Source of the DNA: a virus | DNA length: 30,077 nt | IMG/VR virus record: IMGVR_UViG_3300038548_000094 | Location: 1-30,077 of that record | Reading direction: 5' to 3' (one strand) | Position numbers and translations under genes: made by a program | Shown: positions 9,977 through 29,322 of the stretch, in pieces | Position numbering within the stretch: the stretch's first letter is position 1 | Layout: every line of letters starts with the position of its first letter | Notes under the pieces: model-generated | Seen by the model: the letters and a program-made list of their open reading frames with translations, nothing else | What the model was told of the DNA's origin: nothing | Databases searched by the model: none

Positions 9977-10304
9977 TATTGCACCGACAGGTGTAGAGCA
10001 CTATTGCGAAATAGATCACGATGGCGATGAACTGACGCTCATCGAGCACACACCTACGCGCATCGAAGATGAAATTCTCGATCACTGCGCGAAGCTGCGT
10101 GGTATGGCGCAAGGGCGCGGCAATGCGTTTCAGCATGCCGCCACAATCCCGATTAACACGTATCAAGCGTGGAAAAAAGAATGGCGCGAGCATTGGGCCG
10201 ATAAATTCACTTGGTCAACTTTTGAAGTAATGAAGTTGAACAGTCGCGACAATTGCAAACTTCGCACCGGGCACCAGCGCGGCGTTTACGGGAAACTATT
10301 GTGA
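9954..10304 (+). CDS. Small conserved-looking head-region protein (116 aa)
   Basis: The frame is open from 9849, but the upstream part encodes an out-of-frame, Arg-rich shadow of the previous gene. I place the start at GTG 9954, after AGGCGG (9942-9947), where protein-like sequence begins (GQRFLLDIAPTGVEHYCEID). The end carries PINTYQAWKKEWREHW and NSRDNCKLRTG. The latter resembles the 'LNdpdnrhFRt' ending seen in small phage proteins beside capsid genes. It overlaps the previous gene by 23 bp and the next by 4 bp. Function is unknown. Confidence 0.65.
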   Translation: MGQRFLLDIAPTGVEHYCEIDHDGDELTLIEHTPTRIEDEILDHCAKLRGMAQGRGNAFQHAATIPINTYQAWKKEWREHWADKFTWSTFEVMKLNSRDNCKLRTGHQRGVYGKLL

Positions 10305-10963
10305 GCACATTAGGACAACTCAAAACGTCCGTCGATGCGTGGCTCGCACGCGATGACGTTGCTGTGACCGGCTCGGACTTCACCGAGATTTTGTTGATCT
10401 CCGAATCGGAGATCGCACGCGATTTCCGTTTTGCCATTCAAGAAGCGAAAGCAACGCTGACATTTACCGGGCGCTCGCAAGATCTGCCCGATGATTTTCT
10501 CGAAGCGCGAAACCCGTTCATCGATGACAACATTCGCCGCATCGAGTACCAAACTCCGCAGGCGATTCGCGAAGGGCGCGCATGGGAAGATTCACGCGCC
10601 GGGCAGTTTTTCACGCTCGAAGGCAACAACGCATCCCCGCTGCTTGCGGGCGCGACATTCCAAATGACCATTACTGGACCGGGCACCGTGGCAGATCCGG
10701 TCGATATCGATATCAATTATTGGGCGCGCTTCCCGGCGCTCACTGCCGATCCCGACACTAACTGGATTTTGGTAAACCACTTCGACATTTATCTGTATTC
10801 GACGCTGCGGGTAGCGTGCGAATACATTCAAGAAGATGTGCTCGAAGATCGCTACGCGGGCAAATATGATCGCGTGATCGAGAAGCAGAACAAGCACGAA
10901 AATCGCAAGCGCTTCGGCGGCTTCCCGAAACAGGCTTACGGCAACCCGCGTGGCGTGATATGA
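10301..10963 (+). CDS. Head-tail adaptor protein, SU10 adaptor-like
   Basis: A 220-residue protein. GTG at 10301 overlaps the previous stop (GTGA) and begins with TLGQLKTSVDAWLARDDV. This 'TLgeLrt.v...l.R.d' opening, followed by IARDFRFAIQEAKATLTF, then DLPDDFLEARN, and a helical C-terminal part (FDIYLYSTLRVACEYIQED), matches phage adaptor proteins of the SU10/gp4-like class. These form the dodecameric ring between portal and tail nozzle. An upstream start at 10253 would add 16 basic residues (within an overlap) and is less likely. The next gene is the nozzle protein, as expected. Confidence 0.8.
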   Translation: MSTLGQLKTSVDAWLARDDVAVTGSDFTEILLISESEIARDFRFAIQEAKATLTFTGRSQDLPDDFLEARNPFIDDNIRRIEYQTPQAIREGRAWEDSRAGQFFTLEGNNASPLLAGATFQMTITGPGTVADPVDIDINYWARFPALTADPDTNWILVNHFDIYLYSTLRVACEYIQEDVLEDRYAGKYDRVIEKQNKHENRKRFGGFPKQAYGNPRGVI

Positions 10964-12459
10964 GCACGCAAGCAAATGTAGTGCAGTTCGGCGAATGGCT
11001 GCCGGATCTGCCCGAGTACCAGAATCCGGGCGCGTTGATCGCGCAGAATGTGATTCCGCAACTGCAAAGCTACCGCGCACTCAATTCGCTTTCGTCATTC
11101 TCGAACGCGCTTGCGAATGTCGCGCTCGGTGTATTTTGGGCGCAGGATGATGCAGGCGTGGTCAGCAACTTCGCGGGCGACGTTGATGCGCTCTATGAGC
11201 TGGCAGGCGGCAATAATTGGGTTGATGTTTCGGGCCCGAGTGCGCCCTATGCCGTGGACAATTGGGAGTTTACGAAATTCGGCGACAGGGTAATCGCTGC
11301 CGGATTTCAGACCGACTTGCAGCAATGGGATCTCGCATCATCGATAGCGTTCGGAGATCTCGCGGGCAGCCCGCCACGCGGCAGACGCATTGCGACCGTT
11401 CGCGATTTCGTAATGGTTGGCGATACCGATGTGAACGGCGGCGGCGGCGGCTCGAACGTGGGACCGAATTTCGTGCAGTGGTCCGGTTTCAACAATTCCG
11501 AGCTGTGGACTCCATCGCTCGGCACGCAGTCAGACTTTCAGGAATTATTCGGACGCGGCGGGCGCGTGCAAAAGATCGTGCCCGGCGAGTACGCCGTCAT
11601 TTTTATGGAGCAATCCATTTTCCGAGCGGACTATGCGGGCCCGCCGATTGTTTTCCAGTTCGATGAAGTCGAGCGCAAGAAAGGTACGCCCGCGCCGAAT
11701 TCCGTTGTGTGGAGCGGCGGGCTTATCTGGTATTACGGATGGGACGGCTTCTATGTGTTTGACGGGCAGCGTTCGCAGGAGATCTCAGCGAATCGCGTTT
11801 CAAACTGGTTCGCGCTAAACGCGGCAACCGACGCACTCGATTCGATGCGCGGCGCCGTTGATCGACGCAATCGGTTAGTGCTTTGGGCATTCCGCACCAG
11901 CGCATCGGCACCGATCAATGATCGGCTGATTATTTACAATTGGGCGGCGGACAAGTGGAGCATGGCAGAGATCGATACGCAGCTTATCGATGAATTTTTG
12001 TCGCCCGGTTTCACACTCGATGAGCTAGACGGACCGCTACCGCTCGGCATTGATCTCGAATCGATTCCAGTCGATAGCGACCAATTCGCGGGCGGCAATC
12101 TCAACTTGCAAGCCTTTGACGATCAGAATCAGGCAGCGACATTCGACGGCGTGCCGCTGCCTGCGACAATGGACACGAAAGAAATCAGCGGGCCCGACAA
12201 CTCGCGCATGTTTACGAATTCCGTTCGCCCATTAGTCGAAGCGAGCGGCACGCCGACGATCACGGTCGAGATCGGTTCGCGAAATCGATTGCAGGATAAC
12301 GTAGTTTTTACGCCGCCGAAGGCGCTCAACGCGATCAACGGCGAAGCAAATTTCAGAGTTAATTCACGATATCAACGCTATCGCGTCAACGTCGCCGATG
12401 GATTCGTTCACGGCAACGGCGTGAAAGCACAAAGCAGATTAAATGGAGGCAGGCGATGA
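10960..12459 (+). CDS. Tail nozzle / DNA stabilisation protein
   Basis: A 499-residue protein starting with ATGA overlap to the adaptor. It opens with VQFGEWLPDLPEYQNPGALIAQNVIP, the 'DlP.y.npG...a.NviP...gY' start of podovirus nozzle/gp10-like proteins. Then come beta-propeller-like repeats (FAGDVDALYEL, VRDFVMVGDT, VQWSGFNNSELWTP) and PNSVVWSGGLIWYYGWDGFYVFDG near residues 246-269. The last third is rich in beta structure and polar residues. Members form a ring under the adaptor and close the tail channel until ejection. A stretch of Gly and Asn (NGGGGGSN) near residue 160 is a probable loop. Confidence 0.8.
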   Translation: MSTQANVVQFGEWLPDLPEYQNPGALIAQNVIPQLQSYRALNSLSSFSNALANVALGVFWAQDDAGVVSNFAGDVDALYELAGGNNWVDVSGPSAPYAVDNWEFTKFGDRVIAAGFQTDLQQWDLASSIAFGDLAGSPPRGRRIATVRDFVMVGDTDVNGGGGGSNVGPNFVQWSGFNNSELWTPSLGTQSDFQELFGRGGRVQKIVPGEYAVIFMEQSIFRADYAGPPIVFQFDEVERKKGTPAPNSVVWSGGLIWYYGWDGFYVFDGQRSQEISANRVSNWFALNAATDALDSMRGAVDRRNRLVLWAFRTSASAPINDRLIIYNWAADKWSMAEIDTQLIDEFLSPGFTLDELDGPLPLGIDLESIPVDSDQFAGGNLNLQAFDDQNQAATFDGVPLPATMDTKEISGPDNSRMFTNSVRPLVEASGTPTITVEIGSRNRLQDNVVFTPPKALNAINGEANFRVNSRYQRYRVNVADGFVHGNGVKAQSRLNGGRR

Positions 12460-13337
12460 GCGGTGGCGGCGGCGGACTGAGTGCGGCATTACAAAACTTG
12501 CGGGGGCAACTCCCTGAAAACATCGGCGGCACGGGCACGTTTCCCGGCATGCCGCAAAATCAGCAGCCTATGGCGCCGCAGAATTACAATTACGGGCAGC
12601 AAGGCACGTACAACACGCTCGCGCAGGACATGCAGCAGGGCAACACGGGCGCGTATAACTTCGGCGGAAATCAGTTCAATTACTCGCCCTACGGCATGAG
12701 CAATCAAAGCCCTAGCTCGAACTATTTTCAGTATTCGAGCGATCCGAATCGCAATCCGAATCAGTACACGAATCCGAACATTCAGCAGCCGCCCGGACAA
12801 GATCAGAATCAGCAGCCTTATCCGTGGTTTCCGACTCAGCAGCCGATCATGGGCGGCGGCGGACAGTTCGGACAAGGCTTCGGCGGCGACGGCGGGCGCT
12901 TCGGACGCGGCGGCGGCAGCTTTGCCGGACGCGGCGGCGGCGGCATGCCGGGACGTTTCAACAATGCCGGACGCGGCGGCGGACAAGGCTACGGCGGCGC
13001 CTATGGCGGCGGCGGCTTCGGCAACTTCGGCGGCTTCGATAATTACAGCCGCATGCAGCAGGGCGGCGCGATGCCTTACGGTGGCGGCGGCGGATTCCAG
13101 AGCAATTACGGATCGCCATTCAGCGGCGGCGGGCAGCAGGCAATGCTCATGGCGGAAAATCGCTACCAGCAACCGGGGCAAGCGCAAACGCCGAACCAAA
13201 TTCAGCCCGCGCAGCAAGTCGAGCAGTATCGTAATTATCGCTCGCCGTTCGCAGGCGGCGGACAGTCAACGCAGTACGGTCCGCAGTTCGGCGGCTACGG
13301 CGGCGGCGGCTACGGTGGGGGCATGCAGTGGCGTTAG
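12456..13337 (+). CDS. RGG/prion-like low-complexity protein
   Basis: A 293-residue protein made almost wholly of Gly, Gln, Asn, Tyr, Phe, Pro and Ser. The first 130 residues are Q/N/Y/P-rich (YNYGQQGTYN, NPNQYTNPNIQQPPGQDQ). The middle is Gly/Phe/Arg-rich with RGG-box-like repeats (FGRGGGSFAGRGGGG, NAGRGGGQGYGG). The end has repeated RSPFAGGG/SPFSGGG and GGYGGGG units. It resembles disordered RGG or prion-like domains that drive condensates or bind RNA in other organisms. No folded domain is visible. ATGA overlap with the nozzle gene and 10-bp overlap with the next gene argue that it is a real translated gene. It may be an internal or ejected virion protein, since its neighbours are. Confidence 0.8.
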   Translation: MSGGGGGLSAALQNLRGQLPENIGGTGTFPGMPQNQQPMAPQNYNYGQQGTYNTLAQDMQQGNTGAYNFGGNQFNYSPYGMSNQSPSSNYFQYSSDPNRNPNQYTNPNIQQPPGQDQNQQPYPWFPTQQPIMGGGGQFGQGFGGDGGRFGRGGGSFAGRGGGGMPGRFNNAGRGGGQGYGGAYGGGGFGNFGGFDNYSRMQQGGAMPYGGGGGFQSNYGSPFSGGGQQAMLMAENRYQQPGQAQTPNQIQPAQQVEQYRNYRSPFAGGGQSTQYGPQFGGYGGGGYGGGMQWR

Positions 13338-13783
13338 CGGCAACAGAAGAAGTTTTCGACGAAATCGAAACGCCGATAGGCGGCGTGCCCGCCGAGCAGT
13401 TGATGAACGTGTGGCACAAAGTCGAGCCGATGCTTGCCCGCGTTGTGAAAGAAGAATGCGGCTACACGCTCGAATCGCTGCTGACTGAATTGCAGTTTTC
13501 GCGCATGCAGCTATGGGTGATCGGAGATTTTCAAGGCGTGGTCATTACGCAAATTCGCGTGTGTCCGCCGCCCGTGCCGCCGATACTTTGGGTGCAGTTT
13601 TTTGCTGGCGATCACATGCAGGACTGGCTCACGGATTGGAAAGATGTAATGGAAGCGTTCGCTCGCCACAACGGATGCAATGCAATCGAATTCGCCGGGC
13701 GCAAAGGCTGGAATAAAATTTCAGAAATGCACCCCGAGTACAAGGCGAAGTGGACGATTTTTCGGAGAGAATTAGATGGGTAG
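13328..13783 (+). CDS. GNAT-like internal/virion-region protein (151 aa)
   Basis: GTG start at 13328 inside the end of the previous gene, and the end overlaps the next gene by 8 bp. The middle has alternating strands LQFSRMQLWVIGD, GVVITQIRVCPPPVPPILWVQFFAG and then WKDVMEAFARHNGCNAIEFAGRKGWNKI (about residues 104-131). The last segment is like the 'A+..Gc..i.+..gR.gW' strand-helix of GNAT-fold proteins found near tail genes of podoviruses and compared there with T7 internal protein gp13. The acetyl-CoA-binding R/QxxGxG/A signature is not seen, so an enzyme is unlikely. A structural use of the fold is the best guess. Confidence 0.6.
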   Translation: MALAATEEVFDEIETPIGGVPAEQLMNVWHKVEPMLARVVKEECGYTLESLLTELQFSRMQLWVIGDFQGVVITQIRVCPPPVPPILWVQFFAGDHMQDWLTDWKDVMEAFARHNGCNAIEFAGRKGWNKISEMHPEYKAKWTIFRRELDG

Positions 13784-15248
13784 CAAGAGCGACCAAACTT
13801 CGACCCAAACAAGTACACCGTGGGAAGGGCAGCAACCGTATCTGACGGATTTATTTTCGCAGGCGCAGCAGCTCTATGGCGCGGGCGGGCCGCAGTATTT
13901 CCCCGGTCAGACCGTCGCACCATTCTCGCCGCAAACGCAGATGGGAATGGATCTGACCACGCAGCGCGCACTCGGCGGCGATCCGTCGATGCAGGGCTTC
14001 GGAAATTATTTATCGAACACGTTCAATCAGCAGCAAATGGACCCGAACCAAATTGCACAGTATGGAGTGCAGGGCATCGGTCAAGGTCGAGATCTTTTGC
14101 AGCAGGCAGGACAAGGCGCCATCGGATTACCGGGCGCCTCACAGTATGCGGGGGGCGTGACGAATCCCTACACGTCTGCTCTTATGGGCAGCTCGGGATA
14201 CGGCGGGTTAGGCGAGGCCAGCCAATTTTTCGGACAAGGGCAAGGCGCGCTCCCCGCAGCTACATCATTCGCGCAGAACATGATGCAAACGCCGGGCGGC
14301 GGCGCCATCGATCCCGCCGCAGCGCAGCAGCTCGGCGCGACGGCGGGCGGATCGTATCTCGGCAGCAATCCGTATCTCGATCAAATGTATGACGTTGCCG
14401 CAGGCAAAGTCGGCAAATCGTTTCAGGAACAGATCATGCCCGGCATACAGGGGCAGTTCGGTGCCGCTGGACGCACCGGAAGCGGCATGCAGGCGCTTAC
14501 GAGTGCAAACGCAGCAGGGCAAGCCGCCGAGCAGCTTCGTGGCTTAGCGGGCGACATATACGCCCCTGCGTATGAATCCGAGCGCGGGCGACAAGTGCAG
14601 GCAGCCGGGCAGCTCGGCCAGCTCGGGCTCGGTGGCGGACAGCTACAGCTCGGCGCGGGCGGACTCGCGGGCGATATCTTCGGCCAGCAAGGGCAGCGGC
14701 TCGGCATGGCGGCGGATATGTACGGGCAGCAGCGCGGACTCGGGCAGCAGGCAATGCAGCAAGCCGGGCAGCTTGGACTCGGCGGCGGGCAGCTCGCTTC
14801 GCAGCTCTACGGCACGGGCATGCAGGGCATGCTCGGCGCGGGCGGCTCACTCGGGCAGCTCGGCGTAGGCGGCATGGGCGGGCTCACGGATCTGTACGGG
14901 CAGCAAGGGCAGCAGCAATTCCGAGCGGGATCGCTGGCGCCGAGTTATCAGGGCATGCAGTACGGCGACATTCAGCAGCTTATGAACATGGGCGCGATGA
15001 ACGAAGATCAGGCGCAGCGACTCATTCAAGGCGATATGGATCGCTGGAATTTCCAACAGAATGCGCCCGCGCAAAATCTCGGCAACTACGCGAACACAAT
15101 TTACGGACTGCCGGGCGGCTACGGTACGCAAACCAGTACCACGCCGGGCGGCTCGCGACTCGGCGGCGCATTCGGCGGCGCGATGGCAGGCTCAGCGATG
15201 GGACCGTGGGGCATGCTCGGCGGCGGCATCTTAGGAGCACTCGGCTAA
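13776..15248 (+). CDS. Gly/Gln-rich ejection or virion protein with repeats
   Basis: A 490-residue protein opening with SKSDQTSTQTSTPWEGQQPYLTDLFSQAQQLY and FPGQTVAPFSPQTQMGM. This 'PW..QQPyL..l...A..lY....p.yfpg.tv.pfs..tq.gm' start is recurrent in phage virion proteins next to nozzle and ejection genes. Residues about 270-390 hold degenerate repeats of GQLGLGGGQL and YGQQGQ/YGQQRG. The C-terminus is a glycine-zipper hydrophobic segment (GGAFGGAMAGSAMGPWGMLG) able to cross or enter a membrane. I infer a protein delivered with the DNA that helps cross the cell envelope. It ends directly before the next gene. Confidence 0.7.
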   Translation: MGSKSDQTSTQTSTPWEGQQPYLTDLFSQAQQLYGAGGPQYFPGQTVAPFSPQTQMGMDLTTQRALGGDPSMQGFGNYLSNTFNQQQMDPNQIAQYGVQGIGQGRDLLQQAGQGAIGLPGASQYAGGVTNPYTSALMGSSGYGGLGEASQFFGQGQGALPAATSFAQNMMQTPGGGAIDPAAAQQLGATAGGSYLGSNPYLDQMYDVAAGKVGKSFQEQIMPGIQGQFGAAGRTGSGMQALTSANAAGQAAEQLRGLAGDIYAPAYESERGRQVQAAGQLGQLGLGGGQLQLGAGGLAGDIFGQQGQRLGMAADMYGQQRGLGQQAMQQAGQLGLGGGQLASQLYGTGMQGMLGAGGSLGQLGVGGMGGLTDLYGQQGQQQFRAGSLAPSYQGMQYGDIQQLMNMGAMNEDQAQRLIQGDMDRWNFQQNAPAQNLGNYANTIYGLPGGYGTQTSTTPGGSRLGGAFGGAMAGSAMGPWGMLGGGILGALG

Positions 15249-16013
15249 ATGGGATGGCTCAGCGACAATCTCGACTTTGAGAAATTCCACTTATCCGATA
15301 TGTGGGATCGGCTCAAAGATGATCCGAAACGATTGCTGCTCGGCGTCGATCCGTTTAGCACGTCGATCTGGAATACGGCGCTCGGTCGCGATGACGATCC
15401 GATAATGAATCAGCTCGGCGGACCGATGGGCGGCGATTATCTCGGCATCGGTAGCGGCGGCGTTTATGATCGAGCGCAAGAAGCAGGAGTCAACACCGGG
15501 CCCGCGATGCAGATGCACGATCTCGCCGAAACGGTCGCGGCATTTTACGGTGCGGGCGGCGCGGCACGTGGACTCGGCAACATCGGCGGCAGCGGCGGCG
15601 GCATTGTCGCGGGCGAAGGTGGCGGCGGCATACTCGGTGGCGAAAGTGGCGGCATACTCGGTGGCGGCGGCGGCGCCAGCGGTGGCGGCGGAATCGGCGG
15701 CGGCGCAACGGGCGGCACTGCACCCGCAGGCGGCGGCAGCGGCAGCGGCGGCATGTTTGATTTTGGTTCGATGGATTGGGGCAACCCGCAAACGTACATG
15801 GATTTAATGCAGATGATGCCGCAGGGCGGGCAGCAACAGCAGCAGCAGCCGCAGGGTCCGCCACCGATGCGACTGCCGCAGGGTCCGGGCGGCATATCGC
15901 AACCGGGCGGCATGTACGGACACGCAGCGCCCGCGAATCGGGAAGCGCTTTTAGGCTTGCTCGCGAGTGTTGATGATGATGAATTGCAAAAGGTACTCGG
16001 AGGATTATTGTAA
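15249..16013 (+). CDS. Gly-rich virion/ejection protein (254 aa)
   Basis: The ATG abuts the previous stop and TAA overlaps the next ATG by one base. Residues 1-85 look folded and carry WDRLKDDPKRLLLGVDPFSTSIWNTALG and IMNQLGGPMGGDYLGIG. This block recurs in podovirus proteins of the ejection region. Residues about 100-170 are a Gly-rich stretch with GGILGGESGGILGGGGG, encoded by a direct repeat. A Gln run (QQQQQQ) and a Pro/Gly segment follow, and a short acidic/hydrophobic helix (LLASVDDDELQKVLGG) closes it. Likely an internal or ejected protein. The function is inferred from place. Confidence 0.65.
   Translation: MGWLSDNLDFEKFHLSDMWDRLKDDPKRLLLGVDPFSTSIWNTALGRDDDPIMNQLGGPMGGDYLGIGSGGVYDRAQEAGVNTGPAMQMHDLAETVAAFYGAGGAARGLGNIGGSGGGIVAGEGGGGILGGESGGILGGGGGASGGGGIGGGATGGTAPAGGGSGSGGMFDFGSMDWGNPQTYMDLMQMMPQGGQQQQQQPQGPPPMRLPQGPGGISQPGGMYGHAAPANREALLGLLASVDDDELQKVLGGLL
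15624..15666 (+). repeat. Direct repeat in Gly-rich coding segment
   Basis: The same 19-nt sequence starts at 15624 and again at 15648, 24 nt (8 codons) apart. It encodes GGILGG twice within the Gly-rich stretch. This looks like a slip-strand duplication that kept the frame. Confidence 0.75.
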
Positions 16014-16468
16014 TGGCGAACGGCACACCACCAAAGAAAGGATTTCTCGGGCAAGATTGGTCATGGGAAAATCTCAAAGGCAAATTCGGTGACATTGCAA
16101 GCGATCCCGGCTCGCTTACGGCTAGCCCGTGGTTTCAGGGCGGCATGGGATTACTGTCGGCAAGTCGCGATGCCCGAGTCGATCCGTTTCAGGCATTTTC
16201 GCAAGGGCTGCAAACGGGTAAAACTGAAAAGCAGGCAGATGAAGATCGCAAACGCATCGAGGAACTGCGCAAGAAACTCGGCATTTTAATCGCGGCACAA
16301 ATTGCAGCGCAGCAGGGCGGGCAAGATCCTGATACGCCAGCCGAGCAAGCGGCGCAAATGTCGATGATACCCGGAGCGCCGGGCTCGGGCGTGGCGCCCG
16401 GCTCACCCGGCGCACAGCAGATCCCGCCCGATTTAATTCAGCAGTTAATGCAAAGCAGAGCGCAATAG
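16013..16468 (+). CDS. Small ejection-region protein (151 aa)
   Basis: ATG at 16013 overlaps the previous stop by one base and follows a strong GGAGGATT Shine-Dalgarno. The protein opens KKGFLGQDWSWENLKGKFGDI and then carries SPWFQGGMGLLSASRDARVDPFQAFSQGLQTG (about residues 39-69). I recognise the 'gg.gLL...rD.rv.Pf.gf..GL..g' phrase from small proteins in the ejection block of many podoviruses. A charged helix (KQADEDRKRIEELRKKLG) and a Pro/Gly/Gln-rich end follow. It probably belongs to the internal core. The specific function is unknown. Confidence 0.7.
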   Translation: MANGTPPKKGFLGQDWSWENLKGKFGDIASDPGSLTASPWFQGGMGLLSASRDARVDPFQAFSQGLQTGKTEKQADEDRKRIEELRKKLGILIAAQIAAQQGGQDPDTPAEQAAQMSMIPGAPGSGVAPGSPGAQQIPPDLIQQLMQSRAQ

Positions 16469-16477
16469 GAAACGGCT

Positions 16478-17605
16478 ATGCCACAACACGATATAGGCGG
16501 CTTGCTCGGCGACGAAACCGATCCGGCTGCACAGGAAATCGCCGCGCTGCGAATGCAGATCGAGACATTGCAGGGCGGCGGACAAGGGCGCGGCATGCAG
16601 CCTTACGGCGGGCAGGGCAGCGGCGGATTGCTCGGCGGCACGTTTTCAAAAAGCCAGCTAGATCCTTCGCAGATTCAGGGAGTTTACGGGCTGCTCGCGC
16701 AACTCGGTGACGATCCCGCAGAAGTCGGTAATCAGTACGTTAAAGCGATGCAGAATCAGGCATCGATTCGCGGCGCCTATGGGCAGGCACCGTCGAGCGT
16801 GCGCGAATGGGAATACTACAATTCGCTGAGCGATGAAGATAAAAAAGCGTATCTCGAAATGAAGCGCGGCGTGGATCTGCAAAACATCGCGGGCTCGCTG
16901 CAAGGCATTTACTCATCGGGGCTGCGCGATCCTACGCCAGTCGGCGGCGGCGGCGACGTTTACTCGACACTCGGGCAAGAAGCCGGGGCAGCCGAAGTTA
17001 TGGCAGCGGGCGGCGCACGCGGCGGGCAGCTCGCGACACGTTACGGCGTGCTCGAAACCGGGCGCACGGGACGTTACGAAAACTACAGCCAAGCAACGCG
17101 GCTGCGCAATTTAGTCGAGCAGGACAAACTCAAAACTGGTCAGTACACGTCACTGATTTACAAAGTGATACCGCAAGCCGATCAGGAATCGCTCGACTCG
17201 CTCGCGTTGCAAGTTGCACGCACGAAGCTGCGAATCGAGTTCGGCGAAACGCGCATGACCGATGCCGATGTTGACAACATGATGAAAGCGCTATTCGGCA
17301 CCGGGCGCACGGAAGAATTCACCGTCGAAAGTCTCGACCGTTTGCTGCGCGAGATTCAGAATCAAGAAGATGAATACACCCGGCTTTCGCAATACTTTTC
17401 GGGATTCACCGGCACGCAGCAGGGCGAAGCCGGTTACGTGCCCGGCGCGCAAGTGGGCGGCGGCGGCGCACAATTGCCGGGCGGCGGCGGGCGCACGGAA
17501 CTGCCGCAGGGCACAACGCAGCCGGACCCTTACGCGGAAGCGTCCGCCGAAGATTTACTCGCTGAGCAACAAAGGCGGCGAGCACTCGGACCGGGGCAGC
17601 AGTAA
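16478..17605 (+). CDS. Ejection/internal virion protein (375 aa)
   Basis: AGGA upstream of the ATG at 16478; the stop overlaps the next ATG by one base. The N-terminal 60 residues are Gly/Gln-rich. The centre has SSVREWEYYNSLSDEDKKAYLEMKRG (about residues 106-131), typical of phage internal-core proteins. A helical domain then runs IYKVIPQADQESLDSLALQV and FGETRMTDADVDNMMKALFG (about 222-274). The C-terminus is low in complexity (GGGGAQLPGGGGR). Its position before the largest glycine-zipper protein fits a pair of DNA-ejection proteins, as with gp7, gp16 and gp20 of P22, though homology to a specific one is not shown. Confidence 0.7.
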   Translation: MPQHDIGGLLGDETDPAAQEIAALRMQIETLQGGGQGRGMQPYGGQGSGGLLGGTFSKSQLDPSQIQGVYGLLAQLGDDPAEVGNQYVKAMQNQASIRGAYGQAPSSVREWEYYNSLSDEDKKAYLEMKRGVDLQNIAGSLQGIYSSGLRDPTPVGGGGDVYSTLGQEAGAAEVMAAGGARGGQLATRYGVLETGRTGRYENYSQATRLRNLVEQDKLKTGQYTSLIYKVIPQADQESLDSLALQVARTKLRIEFGETRMTDADVDNMMKALFGTGRTEEFTVESLDRLLREIQNQEDEYTRLSQYFSGFTGTQQGEAGYVPGAQVGGGGAQLPGGGGRTELPQGTTQPDPYAEASAEDLLAEQQRRRALGPGQQ

Positions 17606-19800
17606 TGGCGAAATACGCTCAGCTAGTTGAGGGATTACGCGAAGCGTTGCGCAATGGCGAGCAAGGCATGGCGGACCGTTTCGCCGAGCTGATTCGTAAC
17701 AAAGATTACGAAGAAGAATCGAGCGGCGTCGCATCGGCATTACAGGGATTCGGACAGGGCGCGACGTTCGGGCTCGCCGATGAACTAGGCGCGGGCGTGC
17801 GATCAGCGCTATTCGATCCGATAGCGTCCACGCTTGCCGGTGGCGATATCGGCGGCGTAAGCGGTTTCAAAGATTACTTTACCGGCATGCGTGAGCGATA
17901 CAATTTGAATCTCGGCTCGCAGCGTGACGCACTCGAAACTGCACGCCGCGAAGATCCGTGGACTACCGGACTCGCAGAAGTCGCGGGCGGCATCGGCACG
18001 GCGGGCGTAGGCATGGCACGCTCAGCGGGCGGACTCGCTGCACGCGCAGCAGCTCGCGAAGCGGGCACGCAAGTCGCACGGCGCGGGCTCGGCGAAGGCA
18101 TTCGAGCGGGCGCGAAAACGGGACTCGGTTTCGGCGCGCTCGCGGGCTACGGTTACAGTGAAGGCGATCCCATTGCAACCGCAGTCTTTGAAGTAATGCA
18201 GCCGACCGGCGAAGATGGCAAGCGCGATTTCACGCGCACGATGGAAGAATTAAAAGAGGCAGGCGTAGGCGCCAGCATCGGCGGCGTTATGGGCGGCGCA
18301 TTCGGCGGCGTGCTGCCGGTAATCGGTGCGAGCATTCGCGGCGTTGCGCGCTTCATAGCGAATCCGTTCACGAAAGGGGCGCGACTGAATGAAGTCGGTC
18401 GCCGTCAGATTGCCGACTCAATCGAGCAAGATATCAGCTCGGGCGAATTTGCCGATGAAGCGGAACGGCTCGGCATTACGTCGATGGAATACATCAAGCG
18501 CGAGCTAAGAAAAAGCGATATGACGATTGCCGATCTCAGCCCGCGCATGCGCCAGCTCACAGAAGATATCGCACAGACCGGCACGGCGGGCGGGCGGCGA
18601 ATTCGGGCAGCGCTAACGGAACGCGCCGAAGGCGTGCGCGTCGATGGCGAAGTGACGGGCGGACAGTACAGCCGCATCATGCCGAATCTGCTGAAAGCGT
18701 TCGGCATTAGCGGCGAAACAAGTAACTTCGCCCGCTCGATGTTATCGATGCAGAAATCAGCGCGCCGCAAAGCTGATCGCATGTTTGGCGCAGCGTATCG
18801 GACGCCGGTACAGATGACGCGCACGCTCTATAACGCTTTGATGAAAACGGACGCGGGCAAAGCGGCGCGAGAGCTGGCAGCGACAACGGCACGAAACGAA
18901 CAGCGCAAGCCGCCCGGCATTCCGAAACCCGGCGCGATGATGAGCACCCGCGATTTTCACATGCTCATGCAGGGCATGGATGATGCAGTCGATGACGCTT
19001 TCCGAAATCTGCCGTATCGCGCAGCGAATTCATACAAAAGCGTGCGCAATAATTTCGTGCGCGAGATCGAAGGCGCGAATCCGGGGCTAGCAGAAGCCCG
19101 CAGCATGTGGGGCACGCGCAAATCCGCAGAAGAAGCGATGGATCTAGGGCGCTCAATTTTCCGTGAAGATTTCGACGTGACCGGGATAGCATTGCAGCGC
19201 TTGAATCCGAATCAGAAATTTCATTTTCGCATCGGCGTAATGCGCGAGATCGAAAAGCGCATGGGGCGCAAGATGGACGTTGCCGACATGACTCGCGATC
19301 TATTGAAAAAGCGCGAGACTCGCAACGCGCTGCGCGAAGTGTTCGGCGACGATGACAAATTCCGGCAGTTTATGAATTTGCTGGAAACCGAAAACAAAAT
19401 GCAGCTCACGTTCGAGACTGCCGTAGGCAACTCGGCAACCGCTCGACGGCTGTCGCAAGGCGCGACCGACTTCGGCGAAAAACTTTCGTCGCTTGTTGGC
19501 TACGGGCTCGGCATTAGCACCGGGCTCGGCATCCCGCCGAGTACAACCGGATTCCTAGCCGGGCGCGCTTACCGCGCATCGGGCGGACCGAAGCGAGCGC
19601 AGCAGGCTTACGAAGGCATTGTCGGCGGGCAAGCCGACATGCTTATGAGCAACAATCTGCGCGACATTATGAGCCCCGTCACGCTCGGCGGATTGCTCGA
19701 CACGGGCGCCCCGGCATCATCATCGCTGCTCGGCGGCGGGCTGATCGGTTCGGGCATGATTAACCCCGAAGCGCAGGGCAGATTCGGCGGGCCGCAATAA
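17605..19800 (+). CDS. Large membrane-active ejection protein (731 aa)
   Basis: The segment VASALQGFGQGATFGLADELGAGVRSAL (about residues 42-69) is the 'qG.t.GfaDEl.a' motif found in many phage internal or ejected proteins. Glycine-zipper hydrophobic stretches follow at about 121-187 and 220-246 (AEVAGGIGTAGVGMA, KTGLGFGALAGYGY, GASIGGVMGGAFGGV). They suit insertion into the host inner membrane to form a DNA channel. Residues about 260-620 are charged and helical. A second Gly-rich hydrophobic zone with SLVGYGLGISTGLGIPPS lies near 632-655. No lytic transglycosylase motif was seen. Both ends abut neighbours without gaps, so it is part of the late operon. Confidence 0.8.
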   Translation: MAKYAQLVEGLREALRNGEQGMADRFAELIRNKDYEEESSGVASALQGFGQGATFGLADELGAGVRSALFDPIASTLAGGDIGGVSGFKDYFTGMRERYNLNLGSQRDALETARREDPWTTGLAEVAGGIGTAGVGMARSAGGLAARAAAREAGTQVARRGLGEGIRAGAKTGLGFGALAGYGYSEGDPIATAVFEVMQPTGEDGKRDFTRTMEELKEAGVGASIGGVMGGAFGGVLPVIGASIRGVARFIANPFTKGARLNEVGRRQIADSIEQDISSGEFADEAERLGITSMEYIKRELRKSDMTIADLSPRMRQLTEDIAQTGTAGGRRIRAALTERAEGVRVDGEVTGGQYSRIMPNLLKAFGISGETSNFARSMLSMQKSARRKADRMFGAAYRTPVQMTRTLYNALMKTDAGKAARELAATTARNEQRKPPGIPKPGAMMSTRDFHMLMQGMDDAVDDAFRNLPYRAANSYKSVRNNFVREIEGANPGLAEARSMWGTRKSAEEAMDLGRSIFREDFDVTGIALQRLNPNQKFHFRIGVMREIEKRMGRKMDVADMTRDLLKKRETRNALREVFGDDDKFRQFMNLLETENKMQLTFETAVGNSATARRLSQGATDFGEKLSSLVGYGLGISTGLGIPPSTTGFLAGRAYRASGGPKRAQQAYEGIVGGQADMLMSNNLRDIMSPVTLGGLLDTGAPASSSLLGGGLIGSGMINPEAQGRFGGPQ

Positions 19801-20199
19801 ATGGCTTTCGACGTTACACATGCGCAAGGCGAACTGCTCGCGCAAGTGCGTCCGGCTGGCGTGGGCGCGGTCACGTTGTATCAAGTACCAGTCGGCGGGC
19901 TGCGAACTGAAATTACGTTGCTGATCGCGGTAGTGGTATCGGGCACGGCGGGCAATACCGAGATCGAATTATTTCACGATGACGATGGCGCCGTGTATGA
20001 CAATGATTCACTCATCGCGAGCATTCAGCGCGCCGACAATGCGGACGGGCTAGTATTTCAGGCGCAGCATCCGGGTTCGGGTATTATGATGAAACCGGGC
20101 GCATCGCTAGGTGTTTCGATCAGCCAAGCGAACGCAGTCAACTTTTCAGTTTATGGAATCACGGAAACGCTCGCCGAACGTGTCAGAGGATTGGAGTAA
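19801..20199 (+). CDS. Small beta-rich structural protein (132 aa)
   Basis: The ATG abuts the previous stop and the gene's own stop abuts the tail-fibre ATG. The product alternates short strands: AVTLYQVPVGGLRTEITLLIAVVVSGTAGNTEIELFHDDDG (about residues 22-62), then GIMMKPGASLGVSIS and FSVYGITETLAERVRGLE. This looks like a single beta-sandwich. Similar small sandwiches sit beside fibre genes and could decorate the fibre or cap the tail. No catalytic signature is seen. Neither exact family nor role is recognised. Confidence 0.7.
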   Translation: MAFDVTHAQGELLAQVRPAGVGAVTLYQVPVGGLRTEITLLIAVVVSGTAGNTEIELFHDDDGAVYDNDSLIASIQRADNADGLVFQAQHPGSGIMMKPGASLGVSISQANAVNFSVYGITETLAERVRGLE

Positions 20200-28536: not shown

Positions 28537-29322
28537 ATGAACGATCTAGTAAAATTCGGCACGGGCGGCGTGCCAACAACCACCGAAGATCTAGTCAAAG
28601 GCTTGCAGAATGTCGGTCAGACATTGCAAGGCACCAGCGGCGGACTCGCATTCATGCGATTACTAAAATCCGGCGTATTCGCTTACGGTCCAGAAAACAT
28701 CGAGCCCGAGCCCGGCGCAGTGTGGGGCATTAACCCGTACTCGCTCGCGCACGGCTTCGCGTGTTGGGGCGACGGCGAATTGCTCGATGAGCGAATGGTG
28801 CCATTCAATCAGCAGCCGCCATTACGCGGCGAGCTGCCCGATTACGGTCACGAATGGACGCAGCAAGTCGCTATGCAGATGGCTTGTCTCGACGGTGAAG
28901 ATGAAGGCATTAACGTGCTTTACAAAGGCACCAGCACGGGACTGCGCAACGCTGTCAAGAAACTGATCGATGAGATTATCGCGCAAGCGCAGAGCGATGC
29001 GGCGCATATCGTGCCCGTGATCGAACTGGAATGCGACAGCTACCAGCACAAAAAGTACGGTGAGATTTTCTTCCCCGTGCTCGAAGTGAAGCGCTGGATC
29101 AGCATCGATGACGGCGTAGCAGCGCCGGAAGCCGAAGATGAGCCCGAAGAAAAAGCCGAAGGCGACGCAGAAGCGCCCGGCGAGCCCGAGCAAGAAGCTG
29201 CACAAACGGACGCGCCAGCACCAACCCGCAGGCGCCGCCGCAAGGCAGCCGAAAAGCCCGCAGCGAAAGCAGAGGCAGCGCCCACGGGCAACCGTCGCCG
29301 CCGCCGCAAAGCCAAGCAGTAG
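28537..29322 (+). CDS. Probable ssDNA-binding or replication accessory protein (261 aa)
   Basis: AGGAGA lies before the ATG. The N-terminal 190 residues look like one beta-rich domain with VKFGTGGVPTTTEDLVKGLQN, FAYGPENIEPEPGAVWGINPY, AHGFACWGDGELLDERMVP and ELECDSYQHKKYGEIFFPVLEV. The C-terminus is first acidic (about 195-227, EDEPEEKAEGDAEAPGEPEQE) and then very basic (RRRRRKAAEK, NRRRRRKAKQ). It lies between the DUF2800 nuclease and DNA polymerase genes, where DUF2815-like ssDNA-binding proteins often sit in phages. I cannot confirm that family. The basic ends would bind nucleic acid. Confidence 0.65.
   Translation: MNDLVKFGTGGVPTTTEDLVKGLQNVGQTLQGTSGGLAFMRLLKSGVFAYGPENIEPEPGAVWGINPYSLAHGFACWGDGELLDERMVPFNQQPPLRGELPDYGHEWTQQVAMQMACLDGEDEGINVLYKGTSTGLRNAVKKLIDEIIAQAQSDAAHIVPVIELECDSYQHKKYGEIFFPVLEVKRWISIDDGVAAPEAEDEPEEKAEGDAEAPGEPEQEAAQTDAPAPTRRRRRKAAEKPAAKAEAAPTGNRRRRRKAKQ

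Follow-up and report, generated by a model that had tools for sequence, protein, structure and literature searches.

A predicted disordered, glycine-rich protein follows the tail nozzle gene in one podophage clade

Organization of the nozzle-ejection cassette

The window, meaning the whole stretch of 30,077 nucleotides that was analysed, is the 30-kb IMG/VR virus record IMGVR_UViG_3300038548_000094 and represents a podophage whose capsid and adaptor proteins match Pfam SU10 families. Its genes run in the order adaptor, nozzle, glycine-rich open reading frame (ORF), 151-aa protein, a protein assigned by PHROG as 'DNA ejection protein', and then more glycine-rich and structural genes. The region of interest comprises the following features:

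10253-10963, plus strand: head-tail adaptor (Pfam SU10_adaptor)
10960-12459, plus strand: tail nozzle protein (PHROG 3287; relatives PDB 9nwi_Y and 8zkk 'nozzle gp16')
12445-12449, plus strand: GGAGG, a Shine-Dalgarno-like site ahead of the start codon (ATG, 12456), as read from the sequence
12456-13337, plus strand: Gly/Gln/Tyr-rich, predicted disordered protein of 293 aa, the slot protein of the nozzle-ejection cassette
13328-13783, plus strand: conserved 151-aa protein after the slot, GTG start
13776-15248, plus strand: first ejection-type protein, Gly/Gln-rich (PHROG 4287 'DNA ejection protein')

The identity of the nozzle rests on PHROG 3287 and the PDB nozzle chains, since the C-terminal half of SU10 gp17 aligns collinearly with the window's nozzle family but without significance; no nozzle relatives were found in genome contigs with the patterns used. 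At the position of the 151-aa gene, the counterpart in Paracoccus phage KLEP18-1 is annotated as 'putative aminoglycoside acetyltransferase'.

The glycine-rich ORF starts with an ATG that shares bases with the nozzle stop codon (ATGA), continues for 293 codons and terminates within the ORF at 13328-13783, confirming the sequence-only reading of a frame with overlaps on either side whose product passes from a Q/N/Y/P-rich first part through a G/R-rich middle to a G/Y/Q-rich remainder. Its position and frame are conserved in relatives, indicating that it is a gene rather than an artefact of composition, and a chance or frame artefact was ruled out by synteny and codon pattern. Two shadow ORFs, one of 242 aa in antisense (12489-13217, minus strand) and one of 188 aa in the +2 frame (12922-13488, plus strand), are probably both by-products of GGC-rich codons.

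From the nozzle onward, all ORFs within 10960-20199 are free of Cys except the 151-aa gene at 13328-13783 (3 Cys), a compositional trait suggesting that the Cys-free products may be virion or ejected proteins. Elsewhere in the window, positions 28537-29322 encode a 261-aa protein with an Arg/Lys-rich tail at its end (TRRRRRKAAEKP...NRRRRRKAKQ), which is possibly nucleic-acid binding.

Composition, predicted disorder and RGG boxes

The slot protein contains 26% Gly, 15% Gln, 9% Asn and 7% Tyr, with Ile, Leu and Val together accounting for 4% and Cys for none, and among the window genes its ORF is a strong outlier for Q, N, Y and aliphatic residues. In glycine content it is about equalled by the products of 13776-15248 and 15249-16013 (22-26% Gly; both Cys-free). 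AlphaFold (AF2), working from a shallow alignment of only 6 sequences, returned no fold (pLDDT 44, pTM 0.13) and a single helix of five residues (residues 9-13) at low confidence; based on this pLDDT, the protein is predicted to be intrinsically disordered. Prion-like composition and predicted disorder thus occur together, and the earlier description of a disordered, prion-like protein encoded between the nozzle and ejection genes was borne out by composition, model and synteny. Within this chain, several shorter segments can be distinguished:

12462-12530, plus strand: N-terminal GGGGG and short amphipathic stretch (residues 3-25)
12588-12632, plus strand: conserved motif NYGQQGTYNTLAQDM at residues 45-59 (pN/pS 0.10-0.39), a candidate docking helix
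12846-12992, plus strand: G/R-rich stretch with three RGG boxes (residues 131-179), RGG not conserved
12936-12962, plus strand: GGMPGRF block (about residues 161-169), aligning with GYGGMPGRY of L003, L020, L024 and L114
13065-13091, plus strand: GAMPYGGG block (about residues 204-212), common to L003, L020 and L024
13203-13262, plus strand: C-terminal block QPAQQVEQYRNYRSPFAGGG (residues 250-269), common to L003 and L004

It had also been proposed that the protein resembles FUS/hnRNP proteins, binding RNA or DNA and forming condensates during assembly or ejection. The composition, the three RGG boxes and the presence of 21 Tyr and 12 Arg agree with such a role, and with these numbers of Tyr and Arg phase separation in vitro is possible. 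However, the RGG boxes are only weakly above chance in the window protein (3 versus 0.8 expected by shuffling, p about 0.04 over the whole protein; p 0.11 when shuffling is restricted to residues 131-220), are absent from 8 of the 14 family proteins and lie at or slightly above the shuffled expectation in the rest, while the number of Arg ranges from 0 to 13 across the family. Moreover, no RNA-binding domain (RRM or zinc finger) was matched in Pfam at E<=1 in the window protein and the glycine-rich relatives scanned, and the conserved residues fall in a YN.L motif instead; the conserved short motifs look like docking segments, judging from their sequence, rather than nucleic-acid binding elements. 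The RGG and RNA-binding part of the proposal is not supported, and a FUS-like function is considered very improbable.

A family recognized by gene order and a short motif

Scans with alignments of the nozzle, the ejection protein and the 151-aa protein, together with annotated phage regions, yielded 180 loci, some of which are overlapping views of one contig. A glycine-rich ORF of 204-327 aa was found between the nozzle and the 151-aa gene in 10 further distinct contigs (L003, L004, L007, L020, L023, L024, L025, L099, L100 and L114), all of which keep the synteny nozzle, slot, 151-aa protein and ejection protein, and a Pro/Ala-richer version, carrying the motif as in the glycine-rich class, is present in three (L026, L103 and L110). 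In the nozzle tree the glycine-rich class forms one clade that includes a single loss, the phage L006, whose slot is empty; the Pro/Ala-rich members fall inside or beside this clade, L026 grouping with L007, and L103 and L110 being sisters. Cys is absent from all 14 family proteins (window included) and I/L/V are scarce in most of them. The window protein found no match in INPHARED phages (tblastn), PHROGs or Pfam and no significant one in PDB sequences, and the family found none among 50,697 phage records. The family is thus unannotated, and what unites it is synteny together with a short motif, not alignable sequence; disordered and glycine-rich phage proteins are already known in general. 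One member locus, L020, carries between its nozzle and glycine-rich genes an extra ORF of 100 aa (L020:7895-8197), very Lys/Arg-rich and histone-like, whose product is a possible DNA-binding virion protein.

Near residues 44-60 the family carries a motif, NYG..G.YN.L.QDM, which occurs in its strict version in 9 of the 14 proteins against 0.01 expected by shuffling, a count that treats related sequences as separate, so that the shuffle p-values overstate independence; it is weak or absent in L007, L024 and L114. Smaller blocks are GMPGR[YF], PGSYS, GAMPYGGG and a C-terminal PAQ.V..Y..RS.[FY]AGG. Segments similar to the motif recur in the slot proteins of L027 and L108, the former (L027:9437-9931) having a YN.L-like segment followed by a different C-terminal part with a weak DUF4214 match, and the latter being a protein of 95 aa.

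Constraint at the protein level, which the sequence-only reading had proposed to check among relatives, was detected. The motif block has a pN/pS of 0.10-0.39 (six aligned members) and the whole gene, over all alignable codons, one of 0.63-0.70. The corresponding values are 0.21-0.32 (nozzle), 0.40-0.47 (151-aa gene) and 0.39-0.52 (ejection gene); with synonymous sites close to saturation, all these ratios are a guide rather than a measurement. At most one substitution in the glycine-rich gene separates the window from its population variant L002, and the same holds for other close pairs. In L100, a tandem duplication of 135 bp (98%) indicates that the low-complexity part can grow via repeat expansion.

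These data bear on the notion that the gene encodes a nearly neutral, expandable accessory, namely a short assembly factor or linker in which only the N-terminal motif is functional and the glycine-rich part drifts by slippage. The whole-gene pN/pS of about 0.65, the loss of the gene in one lineage and the L108 protein, which has a motif-like segment without a glycine-rich part, are in line with this notion, but the whole clade retains the composition (no Cys, few I/L/V, high Tyr), and in some members short blocks are still recognizable towards the C-terminus, which makes the notion quite unlikely.

Occupants of the slot in related phages

A folded class of protein, of ~104 aa or ~260 aa, is found in the slot region of 97 of 132 distinct nozzle loci. 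Its model (pLDDT 75) combines a helix with a beta domain, and among solved folds it comes closest, at modest Z scores of 5-6, to the domains at the C-terminus of phage tailspikes and fibres. Two profiles of this class gave a best E of 0.5-0.7 in the window, with no hit to the glycine-rich ORF, and nothing in any of the glycine-rich loci examined; a search with the same two profiles likewise revealed no folded-class tip protein hidden in another part of the window. In SU10, the nozzle gene is immediately followed by that of the tail needle gp18 and, after one intervening gene, by those of the ejection proteins gp20-24 (PMC9509320), and the slot product of a Bruynoghevirus matches PDB 9nxp, which was deposited with 3 chains. 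Taken together, the folded class, SU10 gp18 and PDB 9nxp indicate by synteny that this is a tail-tip slot in related phages. The comparison of loci shows that in one clade a protein predicted to be disordered replaces, in a non-orthologous manner as far as profiles and gene order reveal, the unrelated folded occupant of the slot. The slot is not universally needed, as nothing lies between the nozzle and the next gene in L028, L125 and L158, as in L006.

The cultured relatives (L010, L011, L012, L014 and L015) differ directly after the nozzle, which marks this site as an exchange hotspot: the post-nozzle gene encodes a beta tip protein in C72C1 and Venkman, a 49-aa protein in HTVC106P, a 133-aa protein in KLEP18-1 and a macrodomain-type protein in Microcystis phage Mae-JY35. 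Outside the clade, L036 has, 1108-1539 bases past the nozzle end, a glycine-rich slot protein of 143 aa with GGGKxQ repeats that is probably independent of the clade.

The receptor-domain-like fold that otherwise occupies the slot fits the possibility of a glycine-rich host-range adhesin, in which a glycine-rich scaffold at the tail tip would present variable residues for binding to the cell surface. Rapid evolution, changes in length and the expansion of repeats (as in the 98% duplication of 135 bp in L100) point in the same direction, and brush and polyglycine domains are known to act as phage antireceptors (PMC13243795). Against this, the protein has no Pfam match, AF2 with its shallow alignment of 6 sequences does not produce a polyglycine sandwich, and Y, Q, N and M interrupt the glycine runs, so that an adhesin is regarded as unlikely.

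Possible roles of the glycine-rich protein

The explanation tentatively favoured is that the product is a Cys-free, disordered component of the virion's tail exit, which would dock through its motif and serve as a soft plug or brush in place of the folded tip. Given its gene position, the protein would be part of the virion, at the tail exit, where the G.YN.L.QDM motif (near residue 45-60) would dock it to either the nozzle or an ejection protein, and the Gly/Tyr/Gln-rich remainder would cohere with itself into a soft plug or brush, in or at the mouth of the nozzle. Such a structure would close the tail or meet the cell surface, would be displaced or ejected on infection, and would do the job of the folded needle or tip of relatives. 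This reading is supported by the synteny, the restriction to one clade, the folded-class occupant of the slot, the SU10 needle and the PDB 9nxp match, the predicted disorder and the motif. Counting against it are the empty slots of L006, L028, L125 and L158, the weak or missing motif in L007, L024 and L114, and a chemistry wholly unlike that of a needle.

The main rival is an internal protein that would be packaged in the head together with the ejection proteins, travel through the tail channel in a sufficiently unfolded state and, on its release into the periplasm, contribute to building or lining a DNA conduit. It fits nearly as well, because the adjacent ejection proteins are also glycine-rich: the gene lies directly upstream of the ejection genes, the neighbouring products of 13776-15248 and 15249-16013 share its lack of Cys and its high glycine content, the absence of Cys and the disorder suit passage through a narrow channel, and gp20-24 of SU10 are likewise encoded just downstream of the needle. 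On the other hand, the slot precedes the 151-aa gene, and its occupant in relatives resembles a tail-tip or fibre fold and not an ejection protein; an ejected internal protein is hence seen as possible, if on the unlikely side.

A bolder form of the tail-exit explanation, that the tail of this podophage clade is sealed by a cohesive Gly/Tyr/Gln gel, disordered and anchored by a short docking motif, instead of a folded needle or tip, is doubtful at present. If the protein proves to be virion-borne, a low-complexity, disordered chain carrying docking motifs would be able to take the place of a folded tail-tip protein, and the family, which has no Pfam or PHROG match, would provide a case, open to testing, in which the plug, the brush or a part of the conduit of a phage tail is disordered.

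Comparison with known systems

Podophage tail needles, such as SU10 gp18 and P22 gp26, offer a positional parallel, the gene of SU10 gp18 lying, like the glycine-rich gene, directly after the nozzle and before the ejection genes. However, the needle consists of a trimeric coiled coil whose tip is a beta prism, whereas the glycine-rich protein is predicted to be disordered, contains 4% I+L+V and has neither a long coiled coil nor a trimeric beta tip, its AF2 model (pLDDT 44) holding a 5-residue helix; functional equivalence to the needle is a guess, as the chemistry is wholly different and there is no coiled coil. The folded slot protein (alignment A7; Phage C72C1 WJE88087.1, Venkman gp48) shares with the glycine-rich protein the slot from the nozzle to the 151-aa homologue, but it is unrelated in sequence, has a helix and a beta domain and finds no profile match in the window.

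The likeness to the tail plugs of N4 and DEV (gp53/gp74) concerns a possible function only, namely closing the tail until receptor binding; these have been modelled as folded plugs (PMC12892993), in contrast to the predicted disorder of the glycine-rich protein. The polyglycine domain of gp38 from T-even phages and the 'brush' adhesin domains are similar in being glycine-rich, variable and possibly located at the tail tip, but the glycine-rich protein has no family match and no predicted fold. FUS/hnRNP proteins resemble the window protein in their Q/N/Y/G-rich low complexity and its few RGG boxes, yet in the latter these boxes are not conserved, an RNA-binding domain is missing and the gene belongs to a phage structural operon. 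Finally, the proposed Gly/Tyr/Gln gel would be comparable in principle to the gels formed by FG-nucleoporins.
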